NCBI RefSeq assembly: GCF_008710275.1 | Contig: NZ_VYQE01000004.1 | Location: 434,001 to 498,000 of the forward strand | Origin: Histidinibacterium aquaticum | GTDB lineage: Bacteria > Pseudomonadota > Alphaproteobacteria > Rhodobacterales > Rhodobacteraceae | DNA: 64,000 nt | Direction of reading: 5' to 3' | Part shown: positions 34,258 to 41,221 of the stretch, one piece after another | Layout: each line of letters opens with the position of its first letter | Numbering within the stretch: the first letter of the stretch is position 1 | Program-made: the position numbers and the translations under genes | Notes under the pieces: model-generated | Told to the model about the DNA's origin: nothing | The model's input: only the letters and a program-made list of their open reading frames with translations | Database searches by the model: none

Positions 34258-34958
34258 CCGGAACGCTCTACGGCGTCGGCCTCGGTCCCGGGGCCCCGGA
34301 CCTTCTGACCCTGCGCGCTGCGCGGCTGGTCGAGCGCGCCCGCGTCGTGGCCTATCCCACGCTGGCGGGCGCGCCGAGTTTCGCCCGCTCCATCGTCGCT
34401 GACCTCCTGCCCGGGGGCATCCCAGAGATCGTCATCGACCTGCCGATGCGGGCCGGTGACCGCGCCCCCGCGCAGGCCGCCTACGACGCGGGCGCCGACC
34501 GGATCGCGCAGGAACTCGCGGCGGGGCGCGACGTCGTCTGCCTCTGCGAAGGCGACCCGTTTCTCTACGGCTCCTTCATGTACCTTCATGCCCGTCTCGC
34601 TCCGAGGTTCCCCGTCGAGATCGTGCCGGGAATCACCTCGGTGACCGCCGCTGCGGCGTCCGCAGCCCAACCACTGGCCGCCCGGAACGAGGTCTTCACC
34701 GTTCTCCCGGCTCCCCTGCCGGAAGAGCGGCTCGCCGAAGAGATCGATGCCTCGGACGCCCTCGCCATCCTCAAGCTGGGCCGGCACATGCCCAAGATTC
34801 GCGCCCTGCTGGAGGCGCGCGGCCTGACCGCCAAGGCGACCTACGTCGAGCGCGCGACCCTGGGTGAAGAGCGCATTTGCCCCCTGGCGGATGCGCCGGA
34901 CAGCGCGCCCTACTTCTCGATGATCCTCGTTCTGAAAGGCGCCGACCCTTGGCTCTAG
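34254..34958 (+). CDS. cobI: Precorrin-2 C20-methyltransferase
   Basis: Methylates precorrin-2 at C20 with SAM, giving precorrin-3A. The 234-residue protein is a tetrapyrrole methylase with GTLYGVGLGPGAPDLLTLRAARLV at the N terminus and VCLCEGDPFLYGSFMYLH and IVPGITSVTAAAASAAQPL in the middle. It begins in an ATGA overlap with cobL, and its end overlaps the proposed start of the CbiG-CobJ gene by ten bases. With CbiX present it could accept the cobalt form (CbiL activity), which sequence alone does not settle. Confidence 0.94.
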   Translation: MTGTLYGVGLGPGAPDLLTLRAARLVERARVVAYPTLAGAPSFARSIVADLLPGGIPEIVIDLPMRAGDRAPAQAAYDAGADRIAQELAAGRDVVCLCEGDPFLYGSFMYLHARLAPRFPVEIVPGITSVTAAAASAAQPLAARNEVFTVLPAPLPEERLAEEIDASDALAILKLGRHMPKIRALLEARGLTAKATYVERATLGEERICPLADAPDSAPYFSMILVLKGADPWL

Positions 34959-36790
34959 CTCCCGTCGTCATCGCGCTCTCCGCCTCCGGAGAGGCAACCG
35001 CCCACCGGATCGCCCGGGCACTCGGGGCCGAGGTGCACGGCCGGGCCGGACGCGTCTCGGACGCCGAGGCCTGGTTCGACAATGCCCTCGACGCTATACG
35101 GGACCTCTTCCTTGCTGGAAGGCCGATCATTGGGGTCTGCGCGAGTGGTATCTTGATACGGGCCATTGGGCCGCACCTTGCCGACAAGCGTTCTGAGCCG
35201 CCGGTCCTCTCGGTCTCCGACGACGGCTCGGTCGTCGTGCCTCTGCTCGGCGGCCATCGCGGCGCGAACCGTCTGGCCCGCGAGACCGCGCTGGCGCTGG
35301 AAGGGACCGCCGCCGTCACCACCGCCGGGGACGTGGCCCTCGGGCTCGCACTCGACGAACCTCCGCCCGGCTGGCATCTCGCTACGCCGGATCTCTCGAA
35401 GGAGGCCATGGCGCGCCTGCTTTCGGGTGCGCGGGCCCGTCTCGGCGGCGAAGCGGCGGCCGAAGCAGTCTGGCTTGCCGACCTTCCGCTGGCAGATCCG
35501 GACGAGCCGGACCCGGTGGAGATCGACCTGACCATCTCTCCTCCGCGCGAAGGTGTCCTGACTTTCCATCCGCAGCACCATGTCCTCGGCGTCGGCTGCG
35601 CCCGCGACTGCGCGCCCGGCGAGTTGGAACAACTCGCCCGCGAGGCGCTCAACGCCGCCGAAATCGCCCCCGGCGCTCTCGCCGCGATTGGTACGCTCGA
35701 CCTGAAGGCCGACGAACCCGCCGTGCTCCAGCTTGCCCGGACGCTCGGTGTGCCGCTTCGGGTCTTCCCGGCTGAAGAGCTCGAGAATGAGACGCCCCGG
35801 CTCGCAACGCCCTCGGACCTCGTGTTCCAGGAGGTCGGCTGCCACGGAGTCTCCGAAGGCGCGGCGCTCGCTCTCGCTGGCCCTGACGGCACCCTCGTCC
35901 GGTCCAAGGCCAAGACGGCGAACGCCACCTGCGCCCTTGCCGCCGCGCCCACCCCCATCTCCACCCTGGCGGGCCGCGCCCGGGGCCGTCTCTCCGTCGT
36001 CGGGATCGGACCGGGCCAGTCGGCCTGGCGGACGCCCGAGGCCTCGCGCCTGATCGCCGAGGCGGACGAGCTGGTGGGCTATGGCCTCTACATCGACCTC
36101 CTGGGTCCGCTGGCGGCGGGCAAGCCGCGCACCGACTTTCCGCTCGGGGGCGAAGAGGACCGCTGCCGCCATGCCCTCGAGCGTGCCGGCGAGGGACGGA
36201 ACGTCGCGCTGGTCTGCTCCGGCGATGCCGGGATCTACGCCATGGGCGCGCTCGTCTTCGAACTGCTGGACCGCGACGGCGAGACCGGCGTCAGCGCCGC
36301 CGCCCGTCGGGCGGAGGTGATCTGCAGCCCCGGCGTCTCCGCCCTCCAGGCCGCGGCGGCGCGGGCCGGCGCCCCTCTGGGTCACGACTTCTGCGCCATT
36401 TCGCTGTCGGATCTCCTCACCCGGCGCGAGGACATCCTCCGCCGGATCAGGGCGGCGGCCGAGGGCGACTTCGTCATCGCCTTCTACAATCCCGTCTCGC
36501 GCCGCCGTCGCACTCTGCTGGCCGAGGCCCGCGACATGCTCCTGAAGCACCGACCCGCCGACACGCCGGTCCTTCTGGCCCAAAGCCTCGGCCGCCCCGA
36601 GGAGACGCTGACCTACCGCCGTCTCGACGCCCTCGACGTGGACGAGGTGGACATGCTGACCGTCGTCCTCGTCGGCGCCTCGACCACCCGGCTCGCGCGG
36701 ATGGGCGAAGGGCCCCGCATGTACACGCCTCGCGGCTACGCCCGGAAGATCGACGGCGACCTCGCCGGCACGAAGGAAACGACCGAATGA
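34949..36790 (+). CDS. cobJ: CbiG-CobJ fusion: cobalt-precorrin-5A hydrolase and precorrin-3B C17-methyltransferase
   Basis: A 613-residue two-part enzyme. Residues about 1-330 are CbiG-like: an N-terminal half (VVIALSASGEATAHRIAR, GGHRGANRLARETA) and a C-terminal CobE/CbiG domain (HHVLGVGCARDCAPGELEQL, TLDLKADEPAVLQLAR). From about residue 350 a CobJ/CbiH methylase follows (RLSVVGIGPGQSAWRTPEA, VCSGDAGIYAMGAL, FVIAFYNPVSRRR, TVVLVGAST). CobJ contracts the ring and methylates C17. CbiG belongs to the anaerobic, cobalt-first route. The start is a TTG at 34949 inside the end of cobI; this is the first codon that keeps the CbiG strand whole. It overlaps cobM by four bases. Confidence 0.9.
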   Translation: MALAPVVIALSASGEATAHRIARALGAEVHGRAGRVSDAEAWFDNALDAIRDLFLAGRPIIGVCASGILIRAIGPHLADKRSEPPVLSVSDDGSVVVPLLGGHRGANRLARETALALEGTAAVTTAGDVALGLALDEPPPGWHLATPDLSKEAMARLLSGARARLGGEAAAEAVWLADLPLADPDEPDPVEIDLTISPPREGVLTFHPQHHVLGVGCARDCAPGELEQLAREALNAAEIAPGALAAIGTLDLKADEPAVLQLARTLGVPLRVFPAEELENETPRLATPSDLVFQEVGCHGVSEGAALALAGPDGTLVRSKAKTANATCALAAAPTPISTLAGRARGRLSVVGIGPGQSAWRTPEASRLIAEADELVGYGLYIDLLGPLAAGKPRTDFPLGGEEDRCRHALERAGEGRNVALVCSGDAGIYAMGALVFELLDRDGETGVSAAARRAEVICSPGVSALQAAAARAGAPLGHDFCAISLSDLLTRREDILRRIRAAAEGDFVIAFYNPVSRRRRTLLAEARDMLLKHRPADTPVLLAQSLGRPEETLTYRRLDALDVDEVDMLTVVLVGASTTRLARMGEGPRMYTPRGYARKIDGDLAGTKETTE

Positions 36791-37563
36791 CCGTCTATTT
36801 CATCGGCGCCGGCCCCGGCGACCCGGAACTCCTGACCCTGAAGGCCGCCCGCCTGATAGAGGCCTGCCCGGTCTGCCTCTATGCCGGGTCTCTCGTGCCC
36901 GAGGCGGTGATCGCCCGTGCGCCCGGCGACGCCCTCGTGCGTGACACCGCACCGATGACGCTGGATCAGACCCATGCCGAGATTGCGGCGGCTCACGCCA
37001 AGGGGCAGGACGTCGCCCGGGTCCATTCCGGTGATCCCTCCCTCTACGGCGCGATCGCCGAGCAGATCCGGCGGCTTAAGGCGGACGACATCCCCTACGA
37101 GATCGTCCCGGGGGTGCCTGCCTATGCCGCCGCCGCCGCGGTGCTGGGGCAGGAGCTCACCGTGCCGGAGGTGGCGCAGTCCATAGTCCTGACGCGCATG
37201 TCCATGAAGTCGACGTCGATGCCCGAAGGCGAGCGGCTCGAGGTCTTCGCCCGCAGTGGCGCCACGCTGGCCATCCACCTCGGCGTGCGGGCCCTGCGGG
37301 AGATCGAACGGCAACTCGTGCCCTACTACGGGGCCGACTGCCCGGTCGCCGTGGTCTACCGAGTCGGCTGGCCTGACCAGATGATTCTCCGTGGCACCTT
37401 GTCGGATATCCGCGAGGCCGTACGGGCTGCAAAAATCACGCGCACAGCGCTGATCCTCGTCGGGCCGGCGCTGTCAAATCAGAACGGATTTCCGGACTCC
37501 GCGCTATACGATGCGGCAAAACCGCATGTCCTTCGGCCGCGCGCCTCTACCCCGAAAGCGTGA
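36787..37563 (+). CDS. cobM: Precorrin-4 C11-methyltransferase
   Basis: Methylates precorrin-4 at C11, giving precorrin-5. The 258-residue tetrapyrrole methylase shows TVYFIGAGPGDPELLTLKAARLI, ARVHSGDPSLYGAIAEQIRRL and YEIVPGVPAYAAAAAVLGQELTVP, and the family's VYRVGWPDQMILRGTL. It begins in an ATGA overlap with the CbiG-CobJ gene and is the last clear B12 gene of this operon. CobK, CobF, CobG or CobZ, and CobB are not in the window, so other parts of the pathway must lie elsewhere. Confidence 0.95.
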   Translation: MTVYFIGAGPGDPELLTLKAARLIEACPVCLYAGSLVPEAVIARAPGDALVRDTAPMTLDQTHAEIAAAHAKGQDVARVHSGDPSLYGAIAEQIRRLKADDIPYEIVPGVPAYAAAAAVLGQELTVPEVAQSIVLTRMSMKSTSMPEGERLEVFARSGATLAIHLGVRALREIERQLVPYYGADCPVAVVYRVGWPDQMILRGTLSDIREAVRAAKITRTALILVGPALSNQNGFPDSALYDAAKPHVLRPRASTPKA

Positions 37564-38003: not shown

Positions 38004-39176
38004 TCACTGCACGTCGGCGAAGGCCGCCTGGAGCCGGGACACGGCCTCTTCCACGCGCGCCCGCTGGGTCCCGAGGTTGAAGCGCATCGCGGTCTCGCCA
38101 CCCGTCCCGAAGGCGGGCCCCGGAGAAGGGCCGAGCCGCGCCTCCTCGACCACCCGGCGGGAAACCTCCTCGGGCGACATCCCGAGCGGGGCGAAGTCCA
38201 CCCAGGCGAGGTAGGTCGCCTGCATCGGCATCGCGGAAAGGCCCGGGATCTCCGCCACGCCCTCGCTGAAGACGCGAATGTTCTCGGCTAGGTAGGCGGT
38301 GAGCGAGTCGACCCAGCCGGCACCCTGGCGGTACGCCTCCCGCGTTATCTCCACGCCGAAGATGTTGGGCTGGATGTCCGAGGCCTTGAGCGCCGTCTGT
38401 AGCTTCTCGCGCAGGGTGTCGTCCGGCACGATAAGGCAGCCCGTCCGGGCGCCCGCGACATTGAAGGTCTTGGAGGCCGCCGCCATGACGACCAGCCGGT
38501 CAGTGACCTCGGGCACGGCGACCGGCATCGGGACGTGGGTCTGTCCGGGAAGGACGAGGTCGTGATGGATCTCGTCGGAGATCAGGATCATGTCGTGCCG
38601 TTCACAGACCTGCGCCATCCGCCGCTGCTCCTCGGGCGTCCAGATGCGGCCCGCGGGATTGTGGGGCGACGAGATCAGCATGATCCGCTCGTCACCTGTC
38701 AGGCCGGCCTCCAGCGCGTCGAAGTCGATCTCGAAGCGGCCGTCGGCGCCGACCTCTAGCGGGCATTCGTGGGGGCGCCGCCCGTTGCGGCGGATCTTCG
38801 TCGTGAACTCGTGGTAGACCGGGGTGAAGATCACGACGCCGTCGCCGGGCTCGCTCAGCGTCTGCAGGCAGACGGCGATGCCGTTGCCCAGCCCGTGCGT
38901 GTAGAGGACATGCGCCGGGTCCGCGTCCCAGCCGTGACGGGTGCGCATCCAGTTGGCGACCGCCTCCGAGCAGGCGTCCAGACCAGAGAAGTAGCCGAGG
39001 ATCCCGCTCCGGGCGAGATCGACGACCGCGTCCTGCAGGAACTGTGGCGCGTCGAAATCCATGTCGGCGACCCACATCGGCAGCGGATCGTCGCCGCGCA
39101 GTCCGAGCGCCGCCTCCGCCGCCGACCACTTCACCTGGTGCGTGCCCGCCCGGACCGTGGGTCTGTCGAAATTCAT
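38004..39176 (-). CDS. patB: MalY/PatB family PLP-dependent beta C-S lyase
   Basis: A 390-residue PLP enzyme of the MalY/PatB group, which cleaves cystathionine or similar C-S bonds to pyruvate, ammonia and a thiol. Seen: LPMWVADMDFDAPQFL near the N terminus, the HNPAGRIWTPEE and ISDEIHHDLV motifs, and AASKTFNVAGARTG with the Schiff-base Lys. The start at 39176 (MNFDRP) follows AGGAGA. The frame is open much further upstream over the def gene but without homology. Natural substrate unknown; cystathionine beta-lyase activity is likely. It diverges from def. Confidence 0.88.
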   Translation of the reverse strand: MNFDRPTVRAGTHQVKWSAAEAALGLRGDDPLPMWVADMDFDAPQFLQDAVVDLARSGILGYFSGLDACSEAVANWMRTRHGWDADPAHVLYTHGLGNGIAVCLQTLSEPGDGVVIFTPVYHEFTTKIRRNGRRPHECPLEVGADGRFEIDFDALEAGLTGDERIMLISSPHNPAGRIWTPEEQRRMAQVCERHDMILISDEIHHDLVLPGQTHVPMPVAVPEVTDRLVVMAAASKTFNVAGARTGCLIVPDDTLREKLQTALKASDIQPNIFGVEITREAYRQGAGWVDSLTAYLAENIRVFSEGVAEIPGLSAMPMQATYLAWVDFAPLGMSPEEVSRRVVEEARLGPSPGPAFGTGGETAMRFNLGTQRARVEEAVSRLQAAFADVQ

Positions 39177-39275
39177 GTCGTCTCCTGTTTCGTTTCGCGG
39201 GACGCTATTCTCCCATCCGCCGAGCGCAAGGGCCCCCTTGTTGCGCGGCGGTCCGGCTTCGCCTATCTGAGCCGC

Positions 39276-39797
39276 ATGGCGAAGCGCACGATCCTCATTC
39301 ACCCCGACCCGCGGCTCAAGGCGGTGGCAGACCCCGTGGCAGAGGTCACCGACGAGGTTCGCACGCTTGCCGAGGACATGCTCGAGACCATGTACGATGC
39401 GCCCGGCATCGGCCTCGCCGCGCCGCAGGTCGGCGTGATGAAGCGGCTTCTTGTGATGGACTGCGTCAAGGACGAGACCCTGCCGCCTCGCCCCATGGTC
39501 CTGATCAATCCCGAGGTGACCTGGAGCTCCGAAGAACTCGGCACCTACGAGGAGGGCTGCCTTTCCATCCCGGAACAATATGCCGAGGTGGAACGCCCCG
39601 CGGAGGTCGAGGTTTCATGGACCGACCTTGAGGGTGCGCAACAGTCCGAGCGTTTCGACGGGCTCTGGGCGACCTGCGTGCAGCACGAGATCGACCACCT
39701 GAACGGCAAGCTCTTCATCGACTACCTCAAGCCTCTTAAGCGGCAGATGATCACCCGCAAGATGGTCAAGATGAAGCGCGAGAAGGCGCGGGCCTGA
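39276..39797 (+). CDS. def: Peptide deformylase
   Basis: Removes the formyl group from the starting Met of new proteins. The 173-residue protein has all three motifs: GIGLAAPQVGV (residues 44-54), EEGCLSIPEQ with the metal ligand Cys95, and QHEIDHLNG with ligands His137 and His141 and the catalytic Glu138. The ATG at 39276 is the natural start of the fold. It is followed after four bases by a second, degenerate deformylase and then fmt, which places the formyl group. Confidence 0.97.
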   Translation: MAKRTILIHPDPRLKAVADPVAEVTDEVRTLAEDMLETMYDAPGIGLAAPQVGVMKRLLVMDCVKDETLPPRPMVLINPEVTWSSEELGTYEEGCLSIPEQYAEVERPAEVEVSWTDLEGAQQSERFDGLWATCVQHEIDHLNGKLFIDYLKPLKRQMITRKMVKMKREKARA

Positions 39798-39801
39798 GCC
39801 C

Positions 39802-40296
39802 GTGCCCCGCTCGTTCGTCCAATGGCCCGACAGGGCGCTGCGCACGTCGGCCAAGCCCGTCGAGGAAGTGGACGACGAGATACGGGCGATCTGGGACGAG
39901 ATGGTCGAGGCCATGGAGGCGATGCCTGGCTATGGCCTGGCCGCGCCCCAGCTCGGTATCGGCCTGCGGCTCGCCGTCGTCGATGCGAGTACGGACCGCG
40001 GACAGGCGGTGCGGCTCGCGAACCCCGAGATCCTGCATGCCTCCGTCGAGTTCCGCGAGCATGAGGAGGCCTCTCCCAACCTGCCCGGCGTTTCCGCCGT
40101 CATTTCGCGGCCCCGGGCCGTCACGGTGCGCTTCCTGAACGTCGCGGGGGCGGTGGAGGAGAAGGACTTCGTCGGGCTCTGGGCGACCAGCGTGCAGCAC
40201 CAGATCGACCATCTCGACGGCCGGATGTACATCGACCGGCTCTCGCGGCTGAGGCGGGAGCGACTGCTGAAACGGGCGGCCAAGATTGGCCGCTGA
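39802..40296 (+). CDS. Peptide deformylase paralogue without catalytic residues
   Basis: A 164-residue protein that aligns with peptide deformylase along its length but has lost the active site. Motif 1 is kept ([12 protein letters not shown]). In motif 2 the EGCLS of the family is replaced by EEASPNLPG, so the Cys metal ligand is gone. In motif 3 the sequence is QHQIDHLDG, so the catalytic Glu becomes Gln134 while His133 and His137 remain. It starts with GTG four bases after def and ends 22 bases before fmt, so the three are co-transcribed. Deformylase activity is unlikely. It may bind formyl-Met ends, partner the active enzyme, or have another role. Confidence 0.85.
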
Positions 40297-40318: not shown

Positions 40319-41221
40319 ATGCGCATCGCCTTCATGGGCACGCCCGATTTCTCGGTCCCCGCGCTGCAGGCGCTGGAGCGGGCGGGGCACGAGATCGCCT
40401 GCGTCTATACCCAGCCGCCAAGGCCCGCAGGGCGGGGCAAGGCGCCTCGTCCGACTGCCGTCCATGCGGCGGCGGAGGAATTGGGGCTGGAGGTCCGCCA
40501 CCCGGTTTCGCTCAAGGGAGCGGAGGAGCAGGCGGCCTTCGCCGCGCTCGACCTCGATGCGGCGGTGGTCGCGGCCTATGGTCTGATCCTGCCGCAGGCG
40601 GTGCTCGACGCGCCGCACTACGGCTGTCTCAACATCCACGCCTCGCTGCTGCCGCGCTGGCGGGGGGCTGCGCCGATCCACCGGGCGGTGATGGCCGGAG
40701 ACGCGGAGACCGGGGTCTGCATCATGCAGATGGAGGCGGGGCTCGACACCGGGCCGGTGCTGCTGCGCGAGGCGACGGGGATCGGGGCGGAGGACACGAC
40801 CGGGGACCTGCACGACCGGCTGGCGGAACTGGGGGCGGCGCTCATCGTGCGGGCGCTGGCGGATATCGAGGACCTGGTACCAGAGCCGCAGCCGGAGGAC
40901 GGGGTCACCTATGCGACGAAAATCGACAAGGCCGAGGCGCGGGTCGACTGGACCCGTCCGGAGGTGGAGGTCGACCGCCTGATCCGCGGGCTCTCGCCCT
41001 TCCCGGGCGCATGGTGCGAGGCGGGGGGAGAGCGGCTGAAACTGCTCCGCTCGCGGCTCGCGGAGGGGACCGGAGAGCCGGGGGAGGTCCTGGGCGGCCT
41101 CCGCATCGCCTGCGGCGAGGGCGCCGTTGAGCTGCTGGAGGGGCAACGGCCCGGAAGGCGGGCGATGGGGCAGGAGGAGCTACTGAGGGGGTGGCAGACG
41201 GCTCCGGAAAAGCTCTCCTGA
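40319..41221 (+). CDS. fmt: Methionyl-tRNA formyltransferase
   Basis: Formylates initiator Met-tRNA with 10-formyl-tetrahydrofolate. The 300-residue protein has [18 protein letters not shown] at the N terminus, the catalytic region [20 protein letters not shown] with its Asn and His, and the C-terminal tRNA-binding barrel ([20 protein letters not shown]). AAGGGAGAG precedes the ATG at 40319. It completes the def, def-like, fmt set. Full length. Confidence 0.97.

Follow-up and report, generated by a model that had tools for sequence, protein, structure and literature searches.

A peptide deformylase paralogue with an invariantly substituted active site lies between def and fmt in Rhodobacteraceae

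The gene between def and fmt in Histidinibacterium aquaticum encodes a peptide deformylase (PDF) paralogue, here called Def3, whose active site was found altered in the same way in all 128 distinct orthologues that were read from its family, the Rhodobacteraceae. It was examined within a window of 64,000 nucleotides (contig NZ_VYQE01000004.1, positions 434,001 to 498,000 of the forward strand), the relevant features of which are listed in Table 1. Judging from its residues, Def3 probably acts at the ribosome in a way that does not involve cutting.

Table 1. Coordinates of the deformylase and formyltransferase genes in the window and of the motifs within Def3
Feature	Position in window	Strand	Description
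def1	39276..39797	+	canonical peptide deformylase, 173 aa, GIGLAAPQ / EEGCLS / QHEIDH
def3	39802..40296	+	deformylase paralogue of 164 aa with altered active site, GTG start, TGA stop
Def3 motif I GYGLAAPQ, residues 43-50	39928..39951	+	kept intact
Def3 motif II region, residues 87-96	40060..40089	+	Ser91 for metal-ligand Cys, Pro92 for Leu
Def3 motif III region, residues 132-140	40195..40221	+	Gln134 for catalytic Glu
Def3 C-terminal basic helix, model residues 149-163	40246..40290	+	counterpart of E. coli PDF ribosome-docking helix
fmt, methionyl-tRNA formyltransferase	40319..41221	+

Def3 of the window matched Pfam PF01327 over the full domain (1.8e-37, 128.8 bits, cut-off 22.8) and was 42% identical to Def1 over 146 aa. 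Three motifs were used as criteria for an active PDF. Motif I (G-hydrophobic-G-hydrophobic-A-A-X-Q) is present in Def3. The second, EGCLS with the metal-ligand Cys, is replaced by EASPN (EEASPN for the canonical EEGCLS), and the third, HExxH with the catalytic Glu, by HQxDH (QHQIDH for QHEIDH, both metal His retained). Gln50 of motif I and Glu89 are also retained. Window residues Glu89, Ser91, Pro92 and Gln134 correspond to E. coli positions 88, 90, 91 and 133, and E. coli numbering is used below unless stated. The altered motifs notwithstanding, Def3 exceeded the score cut-off of the NCBIfam equivalog TIGR00079 (127.8 vs 103.95 bits), and automatic annotation would therefore probably label it peptide deformylase. 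An initial annotation of this DNA had described Glu replaced by Gln at residue 134, loss of the metal-binding Cys, and retention of the fold and of two His, all of which was borne out, with the numbering right. The change of Leu to Pro92 and the change of Cys to Ser at the position of E. coli Cys129 had been overlooked in it.

The genes are arranged on the plus strand as def1, 4 bp, def3, 22 bp, fmt. A whole-genome search returned these two tandem genes as the only PDF matches in the genome, with intact motifs only in def1. The placement of def3 between def and fmt given in the initial annotation is correct, and the co-transcription that it assumed is likely because the genes are spaced so closely. 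Divergent to def1 is a reading frame that we take, from its sequence, to be aminotransferase-like (38004-39578, minus strand), and upstream are presumably cobalamin-biosynthesis-like reading frames (34877-37563, plus strand).

In order to read the site in relatives, the best 80 of 454 matching loci were taken from a scan of GTDB genomes. Ser-Pro and His-Gln were present in 81/81 Def3 sequences (these 80 and the window), and the metal ligands and catalytic Glu were intact in 80/80 Def1 sequences and in 38/38 sequences of Def2, a further paralogue encoded between def1 and def3 in part of the loci. Because these first 80 loci had been chosen by similarity to the query, 60 more stretches were added from family genomes, hand-picked for weak Def3 matches and for genomes lacking def3, together with five further family loci from the class-sample search described below. 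Once repeats were removed (L164 and L170, repeats of G055 and G076, and L083, a repeat of the window), the joint set held 128 Def3, 143 Def1 (excluding the partial def1 of L027), 60 Def2 and 24 outgroup PDFs, the last being the best-scoring ones from other families of the class. Residues were read in these 128 Def3 sequences, compared with 342 family genomes counted as Def3-bearing by score.

At positions 50, 88, 90, 91, 132, 133 and 136, every one of the 128 Def3 sequences reads Gln, Glu, Ser, Pro, His, Gln and His, against Gln, Glu, Cys, Leu, His, Glu and His in 143/143 Def1, 60/60 Def2 and 24/24 outgroup PDFs. The Gln134 named in the initial annotation is therefore shared by all orthologues read. 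Position 129 is Ser in 127/128 Def3 (Cys in 143/143 Def1), and position 41, before motif I, is Met in 128/128 (Ala in 143/143 Def1). Gly43, Gly45, Gln50 and, in window numbering, Asp136 are likewise found in 128/128, Arg102 is retained in 100%, and 24 residues in total are invariant among all 128. Six positions are fixed at ≥ 95% but differently in Def3 and Def1, five of them in or beside the pocket (41, 90, 91, 129 and 133) and one in the tail (154); this enrichment gave a hypergeometric p of 3e-4 for a pocket set that was chosen afterwards. No intermediate with an intact site was found among the lowest-scoring Def3 sequences read (L113-L118, 204-243 bits), in which all of the changes were present. 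Since the same substitutions occur in 128/128 distinct orthologues, they are far beyond chance, and a sequencing error or a change confined to the genome of the window was rejected on the same ground. Cys is scarce in Def3 overall (mean 0.93; none in 39/128, including the window), against a mean of 3.6 both in Def2 and in the pool of Def1 and the 24 outgroup PDFs.

An AlphaFold2 model, for which 99 window and locus sequences were the input, predicted a full PDF fold with a helix at residues 149-163 (pLDDT 95.7, pTM 0.91). The ten best Foldseek matches in the PDB were PDFs of E. coli and other bacteria (TM 0.88-0.95, rmsd 1.2-1.6); E. coli PDF came first, and its entries among the 50 matches listed had a query-normalised TM of 0.86-0.94. 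E. coli PDF is described as contacting uL22 through L149, K150, R153 and K157 and 23S rRNA through K160 and R163 (PMC12690207), and docking by the C-terminal helix, with PDF and MetAP competing at the ribosomal exit, is also described in PMC8712518. Positions 150, 157 and 160 are basic in 128, 128 and 128 of 128 Def3 and in 142, 142 and 143 of 143 Def1, and in 2, 5 and 4 of 60 Def2 (a gap was scored as non-basic). At residue 163, just 54/128 Def3 are basic; residue 153 is Met in 102/128, and mostly Met in Def1 and the outgroup PDFs too. The tail carries a net charge of +7.3 in Def3, +8.0 in Def1 and -1.1 in Def2, and is about five residues shorter in Def3 than in Def1. The C-terminal domain of a type 1B PDF, taken as a helix with uL22/23S docking residues, is thus present in Def3, with the qualification that 163 is basic in 54/128.

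The initial annotation had proposed three roles for the protein, namely binding of formylated ends, ribosome contact and tuning of the active enzyme. Ribosome contact is the one with specific support, because Def3 is basic at all three of the docking positions 150, 157 and 160 in 128/128 sequences, and we infer from them that Def3 binds the ribosome. The pocket, being retained, would be consistent with the binding of formylated ends. The tail could also have been inherited without use, and basic C-termini are no proof of ribosome binding.

A Def3 profile of 30 rows was searched against genome samples of increasing breadth. In the family sample, 346/395 genomes matched at E <= 1e-48. Four of these (G083, G109, G208 and G374; 2.6e-52 to 4.1e-49) scored like Def1 and were removed; 342/395 (87%) were counted as Def3-bearing by score instead of 346, because the loci of G083 and G109, the two of the four that were checked, hold def1 only, and G208 and G374 score likewise. 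In the order sample, 146/149 genomes matched and 3/149 did not, a frequency nearer to the published one than that of the family sample, in which more genera were represented: PDF genes are reported to be clustered in 98.1% of Rhodobacterales reference species, with three copies in 62.5% of these genomes (PMC12690207, 2025). The class sample (387 genomes) held the source genome and five same-family genomes at 265-310 bits. The best other genome there reached 165.7 bits, all 24 of the 24 other matches that were read were canonical, and 291 genomes had no match at 1e-42. In the phylum sample, 36/397 genomes matched, every one the source genome or of the same family. A Def3-level match outside the family was found in neither the class (387) nor the phylum (397) sample.

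Gene order was constant wherever Def3 occurred (128 def3-bearing loci). The 144 family loci sampled comprised def1-def3-fmt (68), def1-def2-def3-fmt (56), def1-def2-def3 (4, with fmt absent from the stretch fetched) and loci without def3 (16), tallies that are not frequencies, as def3-less loci were chosen on purpose. From the stop of the preceding PDF gene to the start of Def3 homology, the median distance was -7.5 bp for def1 and -10 bp for def2, as measured from the homology envelope and not from annotated starts. In four loci (L026 and L037 of Loktanella, L167 of G064 and L129 of G054), PDF genes were present and fmt was not detected in the fetched flank, unlike in most loci. In a further one (L126, G030:C55), fmt is apparently split over two reading frames, by a frameshift or an assembly error, and def3 is also absent.

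Def3 was missing by score in 53/395 family genomes. A def1 plus fmt tree was built from 119 def3-bearing and 14 def3-less loci with usable fmt, and 8 losses were counted on it under Dollo parsimony; support at some of the nodes concerned was as low as 0.49 and 0.59, and the count was given no weight. Because some of the non-bearers (6 of the 14 placed) are nested among bearers, Def3 appears dispensable in some lineages. When the 16 def3-less loci were searched for remnants with seven Def3 queries (tblastn, 6.6-9.5 kb around def1), none was found; nothing except def1 itself fell below E 0.05, the best hit outside it being at E 0.053.

Where Def3 is present, it appears to be under purifying selection much like Def1. 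All 128 sequences are uninterrupted reading frames with a stop, and mean pairwise identity across the 128 def3-bearing loci was 0.68 for Def3 and 0.70 for Def1 (0.50 for Def2, 60 loci). Median NG86 omega for within-group pairs was 0.12 for Def3 (47 pairs), 0.15 for Def1 (47) and 0.25 for Def2 (17), in ten groups that were picked from organism names and whose pairs share species; for each gene, one Roseovarius pair was left out because its dS was saturated. Omega was higher in Def3 than in Def1 in four groups (Marinosulfonomonas, Lutimaribacter, Loktanella and Roseovarius) and in the pair from the genus of the window (0.27 vs 0.16), equal in Limimaricola and lower in the other four groups. A relic or pseudogene was rejected given the 128/128 intact reading frames, the median omega of 0.12 and the invariant residues. 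These counts begin from reading frames, so broken copies could escape them; few such copies are expected, because the tblastn search of the 16 loci was empty and the listed Def3 matches of the family, phylum and order samples contain no internal stops. No trace of the decay in close relatives that would have spoken against the initial annotation was seen in the 16 def3-less loci, and its proposal of a working role without deformylase activity is well supported by the invariant site, the intact frames, the selection close to that on Def1 and the constant order; the inactivity itself is suggested by the residues.

When PDFs of the family and the class were placed in one tree, Def2 and Def3 were each monophyletic (FastTree support 0.997 and 1.0), and both clades fell inside the family PDFs after outgroup rooting. 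We infer that Def3 arose once, by duplication within the Rhodobacteraceae-lineage PDFs, and has mostly been kept since.

Glu133 is presumably the catalytic residue of PDFs, and we take the backbone NH of Leu91 to help bind the formyl oxygen. A docking study describes an inhibitor hydrogen-bonded to the side chain of Gln50 and the backbone of Leu91 (PMC4964514). With three residues replaced together in Def3 (Cys by Ser, Leu by Pro, Glu by Gln), hydrolysis by it is very unlikely, and the protein probably lacks deformylase activity. The best explanation, which we rate somewhat above an even chance, is that Def3 is a ribosome-docked, non-hydrolytic pseudo-deformylase that holds formyl-Met ends or competes for the tunnel-exit site and so times deformylation by Def1. 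It is favoured because the retained His, Gln50, Glu88 and much of the pocket fit the holding of an N-terminus and the tail fits docking at the exit. Like E. coli PDF, Def3 would dock at the tunnel exit via its basic C-terminal helix. Unlike that enzyme, it would be unable to hydrolyse for want of the third metal ligand, the catalytic Glu and the backbone NH beside the metal ligand. It would then either hold formyl-Met N-termini uncut or occupy the site used by PDF and MetAP, and either way would control when the neighbouring Def1 deformylates.

A more specific version, which we regard as tentative and rather unlikely, is that Def3, once a deformylase and now a binding protein, reads N-formylmethionine on the ribosome without hydrolysis: docked at the tunnel exit, it would capture formylated nascent N-termini and delay or direct their processing, and would also serve as the ribosome anchor for the tail-less Def2 where that is present. 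Catalysis and docking would in that case be divided between Def2 and Def3. Def2 reading frames were found among loci L003-L172 (for example L060:3495-3992), with catalytic residues kept in 60/60 and Arg at position 44 in 60/60 (Ile in 120/143 Def1). On the residues read, Def2 is a paralogue with its active site kept and its tail lost, and Def3 one with its active site lost and most of its tail kept. Def2 was present in 60/128 def3-bearing loci and in 0/16 def3-less loci, and never without Def3 there (Fisher p 2e-4, uncorrected for phylogeny and with the 16 def3-less loci picked for a single PDF). In an evenly drawn sample, which was free of that choice, all 17 def3-less genomes had one PDF (16) or none (1).

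The co-occurrence of the two paralogues, these 17 genomes, the constant gene order and the docking residues lost in Def2 and kept in Def3 would also fit a protein that works only as a subunit, either as the partner of Def1 or as the ribosome anchor of an active, tail-less Def2. We consider this improbable, as 68/128 Def3 loci are without Def2 and most PDFs are described as monomers (PMC3344269).

No better placed is the idea that Def3 is an enzyme with new chemistry, in which the two His, Ser91 and Gln134 (window numbering) make up a remodelled site, metal or hydrolytic, for some other N-terminal or formyl substrate. His132, His136, Gln50, Glu88 and Arg102 are kept in 100% and are joined by the new invariant residues Met41, Ser90, Pro91 and Gln133, which seems more than a passive scaffold needs, and the invariant metal His could mean that some metal-dependent chemistry remains. 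Against this, three groups of the PDF chemistry are gone at once and no new catalytic group was identified in Def3. As a third Fe2+ ligand Ser is poor, and Gln is unable to serve as a base, which also counts against it.

There is little to recommend a weak residual deformylase activity that depends on particular metal or redox conditions, along the lines of the eco-paralogues suggested for type 3 PDFs in a paper that also argues that motif loss is not always inactivity (PMC12690207). The low number of Cys residues (mean 0.93 vs 3.6) would suit oxidative conditions. With the ligand Cys, the catalytic Glu and the neighbouring backbone NH all lost, the known reaction would not be expected to take place.

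Actinonin-class inhibitors chelate metal, and Def3 is short of one metal ligand. This, together with a docking tail that such a role would hardly need, makes it very improbable that Def3 serves to soak up natural deformylase inhibitors, actinonin among them, and so spares Def1, even though much of its pocket is kept, PDF inhibitors are natural and accessory PDFs can give resistance (PMC12690207). Chance retention of a decaying duplicate, to which the absence from 53/395 family genomes, some nested among bearers, might point, is already contradicted by the 128/128 intact frames, the omega of 0.12, the invariant site and the lack of remnants in 16 loci, and is scarcely credible.

The pseudo-deformylase favoured here resembles type 1B PDFs such as E. 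coli Def in its fold, motif I, both metal His, Glu88 and Arg102, and E. coli Def also in its basic C-terminal helix with three uL22/23S contact positions basic; it differs from E. coli Def in the changes Cys90 to Ser, Leu91 to Pro and Glu133 to Gln (128/128 each) and Cys129 to Ser (127/128). Type 3 PDFs occur in archaea and trypanosomatids, and inactive accessory PDFs are described from S. aureus and S. pneumoniae (PMC5591237, PMC12690207). Like type 3 PDFs, Def3 is an accessory PDF with crucial motif residues substituted (motifs II and III) and is expected to be weakly active or inactive. It is set apart from them on the published descriptions of type 3, in which the substitutions lie in motifs I and II (PMC12690207) and the C-termini are not conserved in length (PMC5591237), whereas Def3 keeps motif I, is changed in II and III, and retains a basic helical tail. 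Def3 shares with the Def2 proteins of Vibrio and Rhodobacteraceae its place as an accessory PDF beside a canonical Def1; those proteins keep the catalytic motifs and have an altered docking tail (PMC12690207 and the residues read here), and Def3 is the reverse.

The def1-def3-fmt cluster is of the same kind as the clustered Rhodobacterales PDF genes of PMC12690207, a paper in which the rationale for the clustering is called elusive. A statement that one clustered Rhodobacterales copy is uniformly dead or altered was found neither in the available passages of that paper nor in the searchable literature. The same literature yielded no paper on peptide deformylase as a pseudoenzyme and nothing usable on PDF essentiality or activity in Rhodobacterales, which is weak evidence of absence. 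Inactive accessory PDFs are already known from a few species; a family-wide PDF with the same dead-site signature appears unreported in the literature that can be searched.

One clustered gene that passes as "peptide deformylase" is probably no enzyme, a point that bears on PDF copy counts and on arguments about resistance. That Def3 has been kept across a large family with its dead-site signature, its docking residues and its place in the def/fmt cluster points to a non-enzymatic step in the handling of formylated nascent proteins, and would go part of the way towards explaining the clustering of PDF genes in Rhodobacterales, a puzzle already raised in print.
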